This document shows positions 1,305 through 9,383 of a stretch of DNA of 38,778 bases, piece by piece (positions within the stretch are counted from its first letter, which is position 1; every line of letters starts with the position of its first letter). Origin of the DNA: Acidimicrobiales bacterium. GTDB lineage: Bacteria; Actinomycetota; Acidimicrobiia; Acidimicrobiales; Acidimicrobilacustridaceae. The stretch spans positions 1-38,778 of the forward strand of contig JALOLR010000020.1 in assembly GCA_025455885.1 (NCBI GenBank), given 5' to 3'. Below the pieces are notes generated by a model that saw nothing but the letters and a program-made list of their open reading frames with translations, ran no database searches and had not been told where the DNA came from. A program made the translations under genes and the position numbers.

Positions 1305-1442
1305 ATGAAGTGGGTGTGGCCGGGAAATCCGGCGGCGACGGCGAGAATGCGGACGACCGTCCTTCCCTTTCGGCCGCCGAGACGGAATACTTCCGGGCGG
1401 GCGGAGACCTCGGGAGCCGTTCGCGCCCCCACCCGACGTTGA
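1305..1442 (+). CDS. Possible 45-residue leader peptide before the SpeD-like gene
   Basis: A short ORF begins at ATG 1305 with GAGGAG at 1294-1299, a good ribosome binding site, and ends 10 bp before the GTG start of the SpeD-like gene. Its product is rich in Arg and Pro towards the C-terminus (FRPPRR, APTRR). It resembles no protein I know. The position just downstream of hairpins and just upstream of a possible polyamine-type enzyme would suit translational attenuation, but a chance ORF in GC-rich DNA is equally possible. Confidence 0.25.
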   Translation: MKWVWPGNPAATARMRTTVLPFRPPRRNTSGRAETSGAVRAPTRR

Positions 1443-1452
1443 GGACCCCTGC

Positions 1453-1839
1453 GTGATCGACATCACCTCACCCCAGCTCATCCTCGAGCCGGCCGAGCTC
1501 CCCGACCTCGCGCCGATGATCCACCGGCAGCGCCTCGTCATCGAGGGCCGCGTCGATCACGCCATCACCGCCGAGATGGTCTCGACCTACCTCACCGAGC
1601 TGTCCGACGTGCTCGAGATGACCACCCTGCTGGAGCCGACCACCCACCGGTCCGACGCCTACGGCTGGGCGGGATGGATCCACTGGGAGACCTCCGGCGC
1701 CCACTTCTACGCGTGGGAGCAGCCCCTGCGCTTCTTCAGCGTCGACATCTACACCTGCAAGGCGTTCAACGCCCTCGACGCCCTCGACTTCACGGCGGAC
1801 TTCTTCGACACGTCGGCCTGCGTGGCGAAGGCCTTCTGA
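1453..1839 (+). CDS. SpeD-like protein (S-adenosylmethionine decarboxylase fold), atypical active site
   Basis: The 128-residue product has the length and C-terminal pattern of bacterial prozyme-type AdoMet decarboxylase, a pyruvoyl enzyme of polyamine synthesis. The segment H65 to C102 (HRSDAYGWAGWIHWETSG, then FFSVDIYTC) aligns with the family block that ends in VDVFTC. In that alignment S81 falls on the serine that becomes the pyruvoyl group and C102 on the catalytic cysteine (one residue inserted). The usual Glu-Ser cleavage pair becomes Thr-Ser, the following His becomes Gly82 and the catalytic His becomes Tyr86. SpeD relatives are known to have been repurposed as ornithine or arginine decarboxylases, so the substrate is open. 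Start is GTG 1453 with GAGGA at 1441-1445. It is coupled to the next gene. Confidence 0.65.
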   Translation: MIDITSPQLILEPAELPDLAPMIHRQRLVIEGRVDHAITAEMVSTYLTELSDVLEMTTLLEPTTHRSDAYGWAGWIHWETSGAHFYAWEQPLRFFSVDIYTCKAFNALDALDFTADFFDTSACVAKAF

Positions 1840-2639
1840 TGGCCGACCTCCGCGAGCTGGCCGACGACGTGATCACGTCGGCCGGACGCGGGGCCACGCC
1901 CTTCGGTCTCTACGTCATCCCCGGCAACGACCCCGCCGCCGACCTCGGCCGCTCGGTCGAGGTCGCGGTGTTCGAGGAGTTCTTCGACAACAGCCCCGAG
2001 CTCCTCGAGGCCGAGTACCGGCCCTATGACGACAACTCGCTGTTCCTCGTCGTGCTCGACCACCGCCTCCGGCGCCCCGCCGGGGTCCTGCGCATCCTGC
2101 TCCCGCACGGCCCGATCAAGTCCCTCGACGACATCGAGAAGGCATGGGACGAGCGCCCCGACGACGTCATCGCCCGCACCCGCCCCGAGATCGACCGCAC
2201 CCTGCTGTGGGACATCGCCACCCTCGCGGCCATGCCCGACTACCGGGGGTCGTCGACCAACGGGCTCATCACCCTGTCGCTCTACCAGGGCCTCGCCGTG
2301 CTCGGCACGCAGAACGGGATCAAGTGGGTCGTGGCCGTGCTCGACCTCGTCGTGCTCGACCTCATCCAGAAGATGATCTCCCGTCCGTTCCAGCCGTTCC
2401 GGGGCCTCGAGCCGCGCCGCTACCTCGACTCCCCGTCGAGCCTGCCGGTCTTCCTCGACGCCGACGACTACCAACCCCGGCTGGCCATCACCGATCCGGC
2501 CATGTACGAGATCCTGTTCGAGGGCCGGGGCCTCGAGGCGGCGGTGTCGACGCCCGACTACGCCCGCAGCGCCCACGAAGGCCTCGACGCCGCGATCCTC
2601 ACGACCGGGGAACCGCGGCGCCTACGAGCCACGGGCTGA
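1839..2639 (+). CDS. GNAT-fold acyltransferase, autoinducer-synthase-like
   Basis: The ATG at 1839 shares its A with the TGA of the SpeD-like gene (TGATG), so translation is coupled. The 266-residue product has the block YDDNSLFLVVLDHRLRRPAG followed by VLRILLP near residues 67-95. This resembles the strand-turn-strand and R-x-x-P of LuxI-type and PEP-CTERM-associated N-acyltransferases. MPDYRGSSTNGLITLSLYQG (about 131-150) resembles the acetyl/acyl-CoA binding motif A of GNAT enzymes. A long hydrophobic stretch follows (VVAVLDLVVLDLI). Paired with a possible amine-forming decarboxylase, it could acylate that amine; this is inference. No tail of 30 or more residues suggests targeting. Confidence 0.5.
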   Translation: MADLRELADDVITSAGRGATPFGLYVIPGNDPAADLGRSVEVAVFEEFFDNSPELLEAEYRPYDDNSLFLVVLDHRLRRPAGVLRILLPHGPIKSLDDIEKAWDERPDDVIARTRPEIDRTLLWDIATLAAMPDYRGSSTNGLITLSLYQGLAVLGTQNGIKWVVAVLDLVVLDLIQKMISRPFQPFRGLEPRRYLDSPSSLPVFLDADDYQPRLAITDPAMYEILFEGRGLEAAVSTPDYARSAHEGLDAAILTTGEPRRLRATG

Positions 2640-2707: not shown

Positions 2708-5038
2708 TCAGGACGAGACCGAGCGGAGGCGGGGACCGGACGCCGAGCCGATCCGCCGCACGACCTCCACGAGCCCACTCGACGGGACCGCCGGCGAGAA
2801 CAGGTAGCCCTGCGCCTGCCCGCACCCGAGCTCGGCGAGCTGCTCCGCCTCGGCCTCGGTCTCGACGCCCTCGGCGACGGTGGCGATCTCGAGGGAGTCG
2901 GCGATGGCCACGACCGCGGCGACCATGCTCGCCCCCGGTCCCTCACGGTCGAGTGACGCCACGAAGGTGCGGTCGATCTTCACCTCGTCGACGGGCAGGC
3001 GACGCAGGTAGGCGAGCGACGAGTAGCCGGTCCCGAAGTCGTCGATCGAGATCTTCACCCCGCACGAACGCAGCGCGGCGAGCTGACCGGAGATGGAGTC
3101 CACGTCGCTCATGAGCATCGACTCGGTCAGCTCGAGGCACAGCGACGACGCCGGCACCCGGTGGCGGAGCAGGGCCCGCGCCACGTGGTCGATCATCGAA
3201 TCGTCGCGCAGCTGGCGCACCGAGAGGTTGACCGAGACGCTCATCATCTCGGGGCGGGCCATCAGGTCGTGCAAGCGCCGGAGGTCGGCGCACGCCTGGT
3301 CGACGACCCACGCCCCGATCTCCACGATCATCCCGGTGTCCTCGGCGATCGGGATGAACTTCGCCGGGCTCACCGACCCGAGCGTCGGGTGCTCCCAGCG
3401 CAGCAGCGCCTCCATGCCCACCACCCGGCGGTCGCTCAGGCGCAGCTTGGGCTGGTAGTGCACCGCCAGCTCGCCGCGGCCGAGGGCGAGGCGGAGCTCA
3501 CGCTCGAGCAGCAGACGGGAGGCCACCTGCTCGCGCATCGAGGCATCGAAGGTGACGACGACGTCGCCGCCCTGGCTCTTGGCCTGGTACATCGCGGTGT
3601 CGGCGTCGCGCAGCAGCCCCTCGGCGTGGACCGACACCCCCGCGGCGGAGTGCAGCGACAGCCCGAAGCTGGCCGCCACCGTGACCTCGGCCTCCCTGAC
3701 GGAGAACGGGGTGTGCAGGGCCAGTCGCAGGCCTTCGGCGAGCTCGTGGGCCCGCGTCGCGTCGAGGTCGGCAGCGACGACGACGAACTCGTCGCCCCCG
3801 ATGCGCCCGACGACGTCGGCAGCCCGGGCATTGCGGTGGAGCCGTTCGGCCACCGCGACGAGGAGCTCGTCGCCCGTCGGGTGGCCCATCGTGTCGTTGA
3901 CCAGCTTGAAGCGGTCCAGGTCGAGCAGGATCACGGCGACGTCGTGGCCGTCCCCGCGGGTGGGGTCGAGCAGGCGACCGAGGTGCTCCTCGAGGAACAC
4001 CCGGTTGGGGAGCCCGGTGAGGCTGTCGTGGGTGGCCTGGTACGCGATGCGGTCCTGGGACGTGGCGTGCTGGTGGAGGGCCCGGAAGAGACGGAACGAC
4101 GCCGTGACGGTCAGCGCCAGGGTGATGCACGCCAGGATCGTGCGCTCACCTCCGTCGGAGGCCGACGACGGCACCAACAGCACCACGGCGGGAACCGACA
4201 ACGCTGCGGCCACGAAGAAGAGCCTCGCCCGGCGTGGTGCGACCTCGTCGGAGGGGATGACCGCCCCCACCTTGCGCACCGACGGGTGCAGCACCGCTGC
4301 GGAGAAGGCGACGAAGGCGAGGACGTAGGCGACGTCGGTGACGTGGCTGGGCAGCTCGACCATCCGGGTGTCGACCAGCATGTAGACGACGTCGCCGACG
4401 AGCAGCGCGGACGACGCCACCAGGACCAGGCGGAACGCCAGGGGCGGGCGCCGTGCCGCCGAGAACGCCATGCGGGCCCCCATGGCGACGACGAACACCG
4501 AGGCAGCGGGATAGGCGGCCAGGAGGACGCGCAGGCCGAGAGGGGCGTCGGCCTGCGCGAAGGCGGGGATGACCAGGAGCACCCAGGCCAGGGCGAGCAC
4601 CGCCAGCGCGGCGACGACGGCGTCGAGCACGGCGTCGAGGTCGCCCGTGCGGCCGCGTCGACCGGCCCGGGCCAACCCGGCGAGGGCCACGGCGATGATG
4701 GCGTAGCCGGGAAGGATGATGAGATCGGGGACGAGGGAGCGCTGGGCGGAGAGGTCGCCCAGGGTGTCGAGGAGGATCCGCAGCAGCCCCCCGACGAGGA
4801 AGAGGGCGAAGGCGCCGAGCACGGCGATCCACGGCCACCGCGGCTCAGGACGGTGGGCGCGCACGCCGTACACGGTGGCGGCGGTGGCCACCACCGCGAA
4901 CACCGCGAACGTGAACTGGGCCTCGGGGTCGAGCCACCCGACGGCGTGCAGGAGGGCCCAGACGACGCCGACCACGCCCACGCCTGCGGCCAGGCGCGCC
5001 GAGGGGACCCCCGACGTCACCTCCGCAGTCGATCCCAT
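2708..5038 (-). CDS. Membrane-bound GGDEF-EAL cyclic-di-GMP protein
   Basis: The 776-residue product starts with about eight to nine hydrophobic segments (residues 15-320), an integral membrane sensory module of unrecognised type. A GGDEF domain follows (about 345-505) with GGDEF intact near 414 and an RxxD inhibitory site (RAAD) at the standard spacing before it. The EAL domain (about 520-765) has EALLRW, SVNLSVRQL, LELTES, DDFGTGYSS, VKIDRTFV and EGVET. Both synthase and phosphodiesterase motifs therefore look complete; net activity cannot be read from sequence. The start at ATG 5038 is chosen over an upstream in-frame ATG (5158) because AGGAG precedes it at a normal distance and the hydrophobic region begins soon after. 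It is divergent from the ABC-F gene. Confidence 0.93.
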   Translation of the reverse strand: MGSTAEVTSGVPSARLAAGVGVVGVVWALLHAVGWLDPEAQFTFAVFAVVATAATVYGVRAHRPEPRWPWIAVLGAFALFLVGGLLRILLDTLGDLSAQRSLVPDLIILPGYAIIAVALAGLARAGRRGRTGDLDAVLDAVVAALAVLALAWVLLVIPAFAQADAPLGLRVLLAAYPAASVFVVAMGARMAFSAARRPPLAFRLVLVASSALLVGDVVYMLVDTRMVELPSHVTDVAYVLAFVAFSAAVLHPSVRKVGAVIPSDEVAPRRARLFFVAAALSVPAVVLLVPSSASDGGERTILACITLALTVTASFRLFRALHQHATSQDRIAYQATHDSLTGLPNRVFLEEHLGRLLDPTRGDGHDVAVILLDLDRFKLVNDTMGHPTGDELLVAVAERLHRNARAADVVGRIGGDEFVVVAADLDATRAHELAEGLRLALHTPFSVREAEVTVAASFGLSLHSAAGVSVHAEGLLRDADTAMYQAKSQGGDVVVTFDASMREQVASRLLLERELRLALGRGELAVHYQPKLRLSDRRVVGMEALLRWEHPTLGSVSPAKFIPIAEDTGMIVEIGAWVVDQACADLRRLHDLMARPEMMSVSVNLSVRQLRDDSMIDHVARALLRHRVPASSLCLELTESMLMSDVDSISGQLAALRSCGVKISIDDFGTGYSSLAYLRRLPVDEVKIDRTFVASLDREGPGASMVAAVVAIADSLEIATVAEGVETEAEAEQLAELGCGQAQGYLFSPAVPSSGLVEVVRRIGSASGPRLRSVSS

Positions 5039-5223
5039 CGCGTCTCCTGGCGCTCGGGCGTGGCGTGCTGTGCGGTCGTCAGACCGCTCACCCCGCTTCT
5101 TCGGCGGGAGCAGGCCCGGACTTGACCAAATCGGCACGGACGGCCCACGTCTGCCCACGGAGAGTGAGGTCGCGGTGTCCGGGCCCCGCCCCCCGACGGC
5201 GCGTCGACCGGAGAGGCGCCTGA

Positions 5224-8117: not shown

Positions 8118-9383
8118 TCAGCGGTCGAGGAGCGCCTCGGCCCACGACGCGCCCTCGGCGAGGCCGGGCAGCACGGCGATCACCTCGGAGGCCACCGTGC
8201 GGGTGTAGGTGCCGAGCAGGTCGTGGGCGGCGAGCTCGCGTTGGAGCGGCACGAACTGGGTGAGCGGGTCACGGCAGAAGGCCAGGAACAGCAGGCCGCC
8301 GGGGTTCTCGGCCTGCGGGACCCCGGCGGCGAGGTTGTAGCTGCGCCGGTGCAGCGGCCGTCCGGCCGAGGCGCGGTGGGCGACGGCCACGTGCGAGCGG
8401 GGGTCGGTCACCGGGCGGCCGTCGGGGCCCTCGGCGTCGAGGTCGAGCGGGGCGGCCTCGTCGCGTTCGCTGATCGGGGCTCCCGATCGGCGGTGACGAC
8501 CGATGACCCGCTCGCGGTCGAGGAGGTTGAGCTCCTCCCAGGCGTCGAGGTCGAGGAGCACGTGGCGCAGCACGAGGTAGGTGCCGTCGACCATCCATTC
8601 GGGCTCGTCGCCGTCGCGGACCCAGACGGCGTCGGCGAACGCCGTCGAGTCCGCCGGCAGGTTCGACGTGCCCTCCCGGAAGCCCAGCAGGTTGCGGTGC
8701 GTGGAGCGGCCTCCGCCGGACCCGACCCGGTCGCCGGCCGGGGGTCCGAACCCGGTGTGGGACCACTGCACCACCGCTGCGCCCTCGGCCACCCGCACGA
8801 GGTTGCGCACGGCGTGCAGCGCCACCTGGAGGTCGTCGGCGCCGACCTGCAGACACAGGTCCGCGCCGGACCTCGCCGGGTCGAGCTGGTCGCCGTCGAA
8901 GGGGGGCAACACCAGCGCGACGGGACGGCGCCCGGCGAGCCCGAAGCGGTCGGATCCACCGTCGCCGAACAGCCAGGCGGTGGCACCCACCGTGATGGTG
9001 AGGCGCGCCGTCGGGCGGTCGTCGGCCTCACCCGAGTCGACGGGGGGCAGTCGGGAGCTGGGCGACCGCTCCCCCACCTGCCCGCCGGCGGCGAGCCGGG
9101 CGGCAGCAGCGCTCCAGCGATCGAGCAGGGTGCGCAGCTCCGCCGGGCCTCCCCGGACCTCCAGGCCGACCACGACGACGTGCGCCTGCGCAGGCGTGGC
9201 CACCCCGGCCTGGTGTCGGCCGTGGAAGGCGATCAGCCCGCCGTCGTCGGGGGCCGACTCCTCCGCGGTGGAACCGCCGGCGGTGCCGGCCGGTGCCATC
9301 GCGCCGACGACCGCCAGCCCACCGGCGGCGGCGGCACCCGCGCCCGCCCATCCGAGCAGGCGGCGGCGGCTGACGGATTCCAC
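8118..9383 (-). CDS. Tat-exported DyP-type heme peroxidase with GxxEG motif
   Basis: The 421-residue product starts with a twin-arginine signal (SRRRLLGWAG, then an Ala/Gly-rich hydrophobic core to about residue 35), so it should be exported folded. The family hallmark is visible at LLGFREGTSNL. The proximal heme-ligand region SHVAVAHRAS and the following HRRSYNL fit the DyP core, and the C-terminal PGGLLFLAFCRDPLTQFVPLQ is typical of EfeB-like members. The normally invariant Asp of GxxDG is Glu237 here. DyP enzymes oxidise dyes, phenols or porphyrins with peroxide; EfeB-type members work in iron uptake, but no EfeU/EfeO gene is nearby. The start is GTG 9383. It lies 54 bp after hupE on the same strand. 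Confidence 0.92.
   Translation of the reverse strand: MESVSRRRLLGWAGAGAAAAGGLAVVGAMAPAGTAGGSTAEESAPDDGGLIAFHGRHQAGVATPAQAHVVVVGLEVRGGPAELRTLLDRWSAAAARLAAGGQVGERSPSSRLPPVDSGEADDRPTARLTITVGATAWLFGDGGSDRFGLAGRRPVALVLPPFDGDQLDPARSGADLCLQVGADDLQVALHAVRNLVRVAEGAAVVQWSHTGFGPPAGDRVGSGGGRSTHRNLLGFREGTSNLPADSTAFADAVWVRDGDEPEWMVDGTYLVLRHVLLDLDAWEELNLLDRERVIGRHRRSGAPISERDEAAPLDLDAEGPDGRPVTDPRSHVAVAHRASAGRPLHRRSYNLAAGVPQAENPGGLLFLAFCRDPLTQFVPLQRELAAHDLLGTYTRTVASEVIAVLPGLAEGASWAEALLDR

Follow-up and report, generated by a model that had tools for sequence, protein, structure and literature searches.

The locus studied here raises a simple question: what does a protein with the fold of an AdoMet decarboxylase do when its gene is joined to that of a LuxI/FeeM-like GNAT protein? 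The two genes lie in a 38,778-nucleotide stretch of DNA from an Acidimicrobiales bacterium (contig JALOLR010000020.1 of assembly GCA_025455885.1), which was analysed as a whole and is called the window below. The features needed for the argument are the following.

1441 to 1445, forward strand: GAGGA, the likely ribosome-binding site of the SpeD-like gene, 7 bases 5' of its GTG (read from the sequence)
1453 to 1839, forward strand: SpeD-like gene, GTG start, 128 aa, with a rebuilt AdoMetDC active site (Pfam, AF2 and conservation)
1693 to 1695, forward strand: codon of Ser81, at the pyruvoyl-serine position (alignment with 35 other SpeD homologues)
1756 to 1758, forward strand: codon of Cys102, at the catalytic-cysteine position (alignment with the same 35 homologues)
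1839 to 2639, forward strand: LuxI/FeeM-like GNAT gene, 266 aa (fold and family matches of 53 relatives)
2708 to 5158, reverse strand: gene for a membrane GGDEF-EAL protein (Pfam, hydropathy and motifs; the same gene lies beside the pair of genome G001)

The stop codon of the SpeD-like gene and the start codon of the GNAT gene share one base, the A of TGATG, and this overlap at 1839 bears out the translational coupling claimed in a preliminary description of the DNA. The GGDEF-EAL gene, absent from that description, is convergent to the pair; comparison with the same-genus copy suggests that it probably begins at the ATG at 5038. A perfect inverted repeat (1204-1243, arms of at least 19 bases), with no T run after it, stands in the gap between the SpeD-like gene and the gene upstream of it. 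This palindrome was rejected as a shared operator: its arm is single in the own genome, and by eye the same-genus copy lacks it.

Gene starts and neighbours across the loci compared below follow our own simple ORF rules. Structure-comparison rows less than one Z apart count as tied. Alignment A1 has 59 rows (the window and 58 of 80 loci) and covers the SpeD-like proteins; alignment A2 has 53 rows (the window and 52 loci) and covers the GNAT proteins. A2 includes L025, whose GNAT was missed by phmmer and was assigned by position and by likeness to the G242 protein.

The SpeD-like protein of the window scores 36 bits against the Pfam family AdoMet_dc (PF02675; cut-off 25), which matches 59 of the 59 members of A1; no NCBIfam model reaches its own cut-off for this protein or for the GNAT protein. 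An AlphaFold (AF2) model made with 59 family sequences as input has a mean pLDDT of 92.8. Among solved structures it lies nearest to the AdoMet decarboxylases from Thermotoga maritima and Aquifex aeolicus (Z 14.5 to 13.7), the T. maritima enzyme coming first at Z 14.5 and 2.4 Å over 106 residues. The AdoMetDC fold, whose absence from a structure prediction was to count against the preliminary description, is thus predicted with high confidence. A sequence search of solved structures with A1 returned RNA-binding domains only, at E 0.17 or worse.

When a single genome of each species was scanned, 109 SpeD-like relatives came up; the 80 taken into the analysis are 56-66% identical to the window protein over the matched stretch. 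Their carriers are Acidimicrobiia, Geodermatophilaceae, Micromonosporaceae, Actinotalea and one Mycolicibacterium, and further Saccharibacteria, other candidate phyla and one Micavibrio. These 80 loci are not independent (19 are from Geodermatophilaceae and 23 from Micromonosporaceae), and they were assigned to taxon groups by hand with the help of a tree. In this tree, which has few columns and long branches and is weakly resolved, Saccharibacteria, Micromonosporaceae and Mycolicibacterium form one clade (support 90/86); the mixed clade and the likeness across phyla point to spread of the SpeD-like gene by horizontal transfer. The gene is rare: it is found in 3 of 61 genomes of a near-relative sample, own genome included, and in a phylum sample 9 of 396 genomes match at E <= 0.001. 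Four of these nine fall below 1e-30, namely the own genome, G001, G242 and G330 (the last with a lone, more distant copy), while the five weaker matches include ordinary SpeD proteins. Phage or plasmid cargo and a defence system were rejected as explanations: no relative was confirmed in viral_contigs and none was found in the phage collection, three plasmid records hold distant relatives only (34-37% identity), and neither the SpeD-like nor the GNAT protein matches PADLOC.

The active site is where this family departs from its relatives. In the window protein and all 80 relatives (81/81), Ala73, Trp75, His77, Trp78, Glu79, Ser81, Gly82, His84, Tyr86, Asp98, Tyr100 and Cys102 are invariant, and Thr80 is kept in 79 of 81. 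With a pattern this constant, and a GNAT gene beside it in 72 of 80 loci, chance is no explanation. For comparison 35 other SpeD homologues were used, 30 from loci of the phylum of G449 and 5 from the Actinomycetota sample. Ser81 and Cys102, which the preliminary description had reported as kept, indeed align with the pyruvoyl serine (S63 position, Ser in 35/35 of the others) and the catalytic cysteine (C83 position, Cys in 34/35). Two further positions are changed throughout the family. That of the T. maritima processing/catalytic residue which we take to be Ser55 holds Ala (Ala73) in 81/81, vs Ser or Thr in 35/35 of the other homologues, a change absent from the preliminary description; the His68 position holds Tyr (Tyr86) in 81/81, vs His in 34/35. 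The preliminary description had instead listed Thr80, Gly82 and Tyr86 as altered and both catalytic histidines as replaced. The residues are as stated, but a Thr before the pyruvoyl Ser is not unusual (7/35), and position 82 is His in only 22/35 of the other homologues, so that only Tyr86 replaces a well-kept histidine. According to PMC10407285, self-processing of the T. maritima enzyme depends on S63, H68 and C83; of these, the present family keeps the Ser and the Cys in all 81 members and the His in none.

With the Ser55 and His68 positions invariantly replaced, the simple decarboxylase of the preliminary description is not established: a pyruvoyl group would be formed by another way or not at all, and the SpeD-like protein may not self-process. 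Whether it forms any pyruvoyl group is, as judged from the residues, our main doubt. From strand alternation, which was also how pocket-facing residues were assigned, His77, Glu79 and His84 are expected to point towards the former active site, and a putative metal site His77-x-Glu79 ... His84 was considered. If the protein is no longer a pyruvoyl enzyme, it could be a ligand-binding or stabilising subunit of the GNAT protein, or perform other chemistry with an uncleaved Ser81, and the GNAT protein alone would make the signal. We regard this as somewhat unlikely. The replacement of Ser55 by Ala and of His68 by Tyr in 81/81 speaks for it, as do the non-catalytic AdoMetDC-fold domains that appear in the fold comparison, namely the N-terminal part of human spermine synthase and the trypanosome AdoMetDC/prozyme complex; the spermine synthase part and the prozyme are presumably AdoMetDC-fold domains without a cofactor of their own. 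Against a subunit role, there is no variation at Ser81, at Cys102 or at many of the polar positions that face the pocket, and the SpeD-like protein is far better conserved than the GNAT protein, and such invariance and slow divergence are more conservation than a scaffold would need.

The Ser-Gly-x3-Tyr pattern is also present in more distant relatives, some encoded by plasmids of Acaryochloris, Nostoc and Halioglobus and one by G330, which makes the type a wider branch with the GNAT-coupled proteins as one part. The plasmid sister group (L086:6040-6396, L087:6001-6363, L085:5001-5357; Acaryochloris, Nostoc, Halioglobus) keeps S81, G82, Y86, W88 and C102 and lacks H77, E79 and H84, and in Acaryochloris a different, double GNAT gene stands just upstream of the SpeD-like gene. 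Among 299 genomes of the phylum to which the Micavibrio locus belongs, a search for this group returned 5 matches, that locus and four weak ones. In many genomes of the G449 phylum (L137, L139-L146 and others) the AdoMet_dc domain sits in open frames of ~440-480 aa whose pyruvoyl site reads Asn-Ser-Asn or the like, a further SpeD variant.

The preliminary description had observed that the SpeD-like gene is not next to spermidine synthase, and this can be extended to the whole genome, in which PF01564 has no match. At E <= 1e-3 there is likewise no match in 11 of 18 other carriers, while 7 of the 18 have one, which in three carriers reaches 1e-9 or better (9e-34 in Blastococcus, 4e-29 in Mycolicibacterium, 1e-9 in one Saccharibacterium). 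The pair does not look like ordinary polyamine synthesis. A reading in which the SpeD-like protein is an arginine/ornithine decarboxylase or a true SpeD, and the GNAT protein a polyamine acetyltransferase, is in our view highly improbable, even with the AdoMetDC fold and family, the seven carriers with a PF01564 match and the appearance of SpeG polyamine acetyltransferases among the Foldseek rows of the GNAT model on its side. It can further cite the decarboxylases of arginine or ornithine that occur among SpeD relatives, in Actinomycetota and candidate phyla too (PMC10407285). What weighs against it is the missing PF01564 match in the own genome and in 11 of the 18 others, the loss of H68, essential in T. 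maritima according to the same source, and the ranking of the GNAT model, which puts FeeM and LasI above SpeG.

The preliminary description had proposed a search for the pair in other genomes, and was to fall if homologues were never beside the GNAT gene; the search bears it out. With the window GNAT as phmmer query, a GNAT gene adjoins the SpeD-like gene on its downstream side in 72 of 80 loci, and once the two are fused: in G041, of the same order, a single 409-aa frame holds the SpeD part (22-126) and the GNAT part (161-388), and a GGDEF-EAL frame follows it on the same strand. The next frame starts at most 6 bases from the SpeD-like stop in 57 of the 80 loci, those of L025 and L041 not being GNAT matches. 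No GNAT was matched by phmmer in L026, L027, L041, L051, L052, L075 and L081, and in L025 a frame counts as a divergent GNAT because of its position. For L051 and L081, the assembly contains a full module besides this second copy (L009 and L006, respectively). The G041 fusion would suit a SpeD-like subunit of the GNAT protein, while the copies for which no GNAT was detected (L027, L051, L052, L075, L081) argue against one. Over 47 loci the SpeD-like protein is slow and the GNAT protein fast (mean pairwise identity 62% vs 32%), and their divergences are correlated (Mantel r 0.73, 0/2000 permutations). The combination of a slow SpeD-like protein with a fast GNAT protein is consistent with a head group that stays the same and an acyl chain that varies, though there may be other reasons for it.

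Some loci have other neighbours. In the Micavibrio locus L041, which lacks a GNAT gene, a 255-aa frame (8336-9103) overlaps the SpeD-like gene by one base; it has no Pfam match, looks Rossmann-like by eye and is possibly a different tailoring partner. In the Saccharibacteria locus L026, without a LuxI-like GNAT, the opposite-strand neighbour of the SpeD-like gene (4000-4905) weakly matches the C-terminal domain of phosphatidylglycerol lysyltransferase (21.2 bits, cut-off 27.5). L108, from G055 of the same order, has no SpeD-like gene; its weak GNAT-family match stands ~1.4 kb away from a GGDEF-EAL frame of 1185 aa.

The GNAT protein of the window matches no Pfam family. Its model (pLDDT 91.6) comes closest to FeeM (Z 16.2), LasI (15.7), SACOL1063 (15.4), and RpaI and BjaI (both 14.9), AHL synthases that depend on CoA; the four best Foldseek rows are BjaI. 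The GNAT fold with a LuxI-like core that the preliminary description had read from the sequence is thus found in the prediction, near FeeM and LasI, and is of the AHL-synthase type (LasI, BjaI, RpaI), with the limit that SACOL1063, an ordinary Staphylococcus GNAT, ties with FeeM and LasI. At the sequence level, the 53 GNAT relatives give weak matches to exosort_acyl (34), Autoind_synth (13), Acetyltransf_5 (12) and FeeM (3). Their best sequence family is TIGR03694, the PEP-CTERM/exosortase-associated acyltransferase (34/53 at E <= 0.01, best 4.3e-10), against which the window protein itself scores 16.5 bits (cut-off 111.95). The curated cut-off for AHL synthases is not reached, the window protein having no Pfam match and the other members matching Autoind_synth weakly. 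Sequence searches of solved structures gave nothing at E <= 1 with A2, and chance rows only with two GNAT relatives.

GNAT positions 41, 45 and 51 were mapped by eye on LasI letters that we assume to be correct. At the places so matched to the SAM-pocket Arg, Phe and Trp of LuxI, the family appears to have Glu41 (53/53), Phe45 and Asn51 (52/53); a Glu in place of the Arg would suit a cationic acceptor, which we offer as a guess. In 1RO5 the three SAM-pocket residues are Arg23, Phe27 and Trp33 (PMC1282579).

The signalling context of the pair is well supported. The GGDEF-EAL protein of the window matches the Pfam domains GGDEF (142.7 bits) and EAL (249.2 bits), has about 10 hydrophobic segments before GGDEF, and retains intact GGDEF and ExLxR motifs. 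A GGDEF-EAL or membrane histidine kinase gene flanks the pair in 45 of 80 loci vs 3 of 332 control genes, the arrangement expected of a synthase gene beside a receptor gene; the controls come from the same loci at more than 4.5 kb from the pair, and their nearness to the locus ends and slightly narrower upstream distance rules lower the control rate slightly. Such a sensor gene is found in 19/19 Geodermatophilaceae (upstream, same strand), 9/11 Acidimicrobiia-like loci, 8/12 loci of Actinomycetes and Actinotalea, 7/10 Saccharibacteria (a kinase), 1/5 other loci (Mycolicibacterium, a kinase) and 1/23 Micromonosporaceae, and 5 of the 35 sensor-negative loci end at contig ends. Its order and strand relative to the pair vary between groups. 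The preliminary description had called the product possibly a signal, and this gains support from the adjacent GGDEF-EAL and histidine kinase genes, with which it had not been connected.

In eight loci of Micromonosporaceae the pair is closely followed, on its own strand, by a gene of the kinase family, which in L044 is a Ser/Thr-type kinase (Pfam). Such kinases are common in Micromonosporaceae, and no inference is drawn from them.

The three genes also stay together when the locus changes. G001, from the same genus, has the layout of the window; in G242 the same three genes are rearranged, the GGDEF-EAL gene standing between the other two on the opposite strand. The own genome encodes just three EAL proteins. 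In Blastococcus mobilis the complete module is present twice, on separate contigs (L061 and L076), and between the two the SpeD-like, GNAT and GGDEF-EAL proteins are 72%, 65% and 79% identical. The membrane part of the GGDEF-EAL protein tracks the divergence of the GNAT protein (r 0.975 over 32 of 36 rows, L012, L036, L039 and L051 having been dropped beforehand), also when the SpeD-like protein and the GGDEF-EAL part are taken into account (partial r 0.49, 0/2000, 32 loci), a correlation that shared descent can inflate. A ligand domain common to the membrane parts of the GGDEF-EAL proteins and kinases was rejected, these being not detectably related (hhalign probability 0.3%), and the GGDEF-EAL neighbour in L036 has a different, PAS-bearing front part.

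We therefore favour, tentatively and with somewhat less than even confidence, the reading that the three genes are a small-molecule signal synthase and its sensor, in which the SpeD-like protein provides an amine, the GNAT protein acylates it and the membrane protein senses the product. This signal-synthase reading draws on the GNAT gene beside the SpeD-like gene, the fusion in G041 and the sensor neighbours; on the G242 rearrangement, the small number of EAL proteins in the genome and the two B. mobilis modules; and on the closeness of the GNAT protein to FeeM and LasI, its weak family matches, the correlated divergences, the invariant active-site face and the lack of SpeE. The coupling, the fusion, the conserved neighbourhood, the predicted folds, the residue changes and the missing spermidine synthase match are observed; we infer that the proteins are catalytic, in which order they act, what they make, and that the product is exported and sensed. 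The SpeD-like protein would bind a small substrate of the amino acid type (an amino acid or SAM) in the re-lined AdoMetDC pocket and make one conserved amine, most likely through decarboxylation by a self-made pyruvoyl group, in which His77, Glu79 or His84 might take over from the missing Ser55 and His68. Decarboxylation should precede acylation, since a pyruvoyl enzyme requires that the amine be free. The GNAT protein would then acylate the amine with a group that may differ between lineages, and the product would leave the cell. The multi-span membrane domain of the GGDEF-EAL neighbour may sense it and change c-di-GMP, while in Saccharibacteria and the one Mycolicibacterium a membrane histidine kinase would be the sensor and phosphorylate a regulator.

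Several observations count against this reading. The Micromonosporaceae pairs have no adjacent sensor in 22 of 23 loci, seven loci lack a GNAT match, the membrane parts of the two sensor types show no detectable relationship, L036 has its PAS front, and the fold comparison includes the tied ordinary GNAT and the SpeG rows. To our knowledge Saccharibacteria lack fatty acid synthesis, which puts their source of acyl groups in doubt.

The pair might instead make an acylated amine that is no signal, such as a lipid head or a wall component, with the GGDEF-EAL protein or kinase only controlling its production. This seems to us unlikely, although the weak matches of 34/53 GNAT proteins are to an exosortase-associated model from a family linked to cell-surface systems, and the Micromonosporaceae without an adjacent sensor (22/23 loci) also speak for it. 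An exosortase link was rejected, the own genome having no match to PF09721; lipid, wall or export genes are not conserved neighbours beyond single lineages; and production control does not explain why the membrane part follows the GNAT divergence, though shared descent can.

Returning to the signal-synthase reading, its boldest form is a new signal class, in which rebuilt SpeD proteins and LuxI/FeeM-like acyltransferases would make a family of N-acylated amines, with membrane GGDEF-EAL proteins as their receptors in Actinomycetota and histidine kinases in Saccharibacteria; we consider this rather doubtful. Known Saccharibacteria live on Actinomycetota, so host and epibiont may share one chemical language. 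If true, a signalling route would join a SpeD-fold enzyme, a LuxI-type acyltransferase and c-di-GMP in phyla with few known signal synthases, and a pyruvoyl enzyme would work, or have been reused, without two of its usual residues. The locus is thereby a testable candidate for chemical communication in Actinomycetota and in the very reduced Saccharibacteria, whose carrier genomes measure ~0.6-1.0 Mb.

A literature search, with most subscription journals and all bioRxiv preprints outside its coverage, found no description of the SpeD-like/GNAT pair. The word acyltransferase is absent from the text of the SpeD repurposing paper (PMC10407285), and decarboxylase, GGDEF, GNAT and diguanylate are absent from that of PMC13136126. 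A synthase made up of a SpeD-like and a LuxI-type GNAT protein thus appears undescribed as far as we have seen, while the synthase-plus-receptor arrangement itself is known.

Among known systems, the SpeD-like protein resembles class 1b SpeD, SpeDA and SpeDC (PMC10407285) in its AdoMetDC fold, pyruvoyl Ser and catalytic Cys, and in being repurposed away from spermidine; it differs from them in having Ala in place of Ser55 and Tyr in place of His68, in its GNAT coupling and in the lack of a detected spermidine synthase in the own genome. The GNAT protein shares with TIGR03694 acyltransferases the best sequence-family match of its relatives (34/53), yet the window protein is far under the cut-off (16.5 vs 111.95 bits) and its genome lacks exosortase. 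FeeM, an N-acyl amino acid synthase, is the best structural match (Z 16.2) and its model matches 3/53 relatives; unlike FeeM, the GNAT protein is coupled to a SpeD-like protein, and the two are 7% identical in the structural alignment. From LuxI-type AHL synthases it differs in apparently having Glu41 and Asn51 at the SAM-pocket Arg and Trp (mapped by eye), in needing or accompanying a SpeD-like partner, and in having no LuxR seen beside it. Solitary luxI genes without a LuxR partner are described from Actinomycetota in PMC13136126, and the present genes are like these; with LasI, BjaI and RpaI they share the GNAT fold, the weak Autoind_synth matches and the position of the gene beside that of a signalling receptor.
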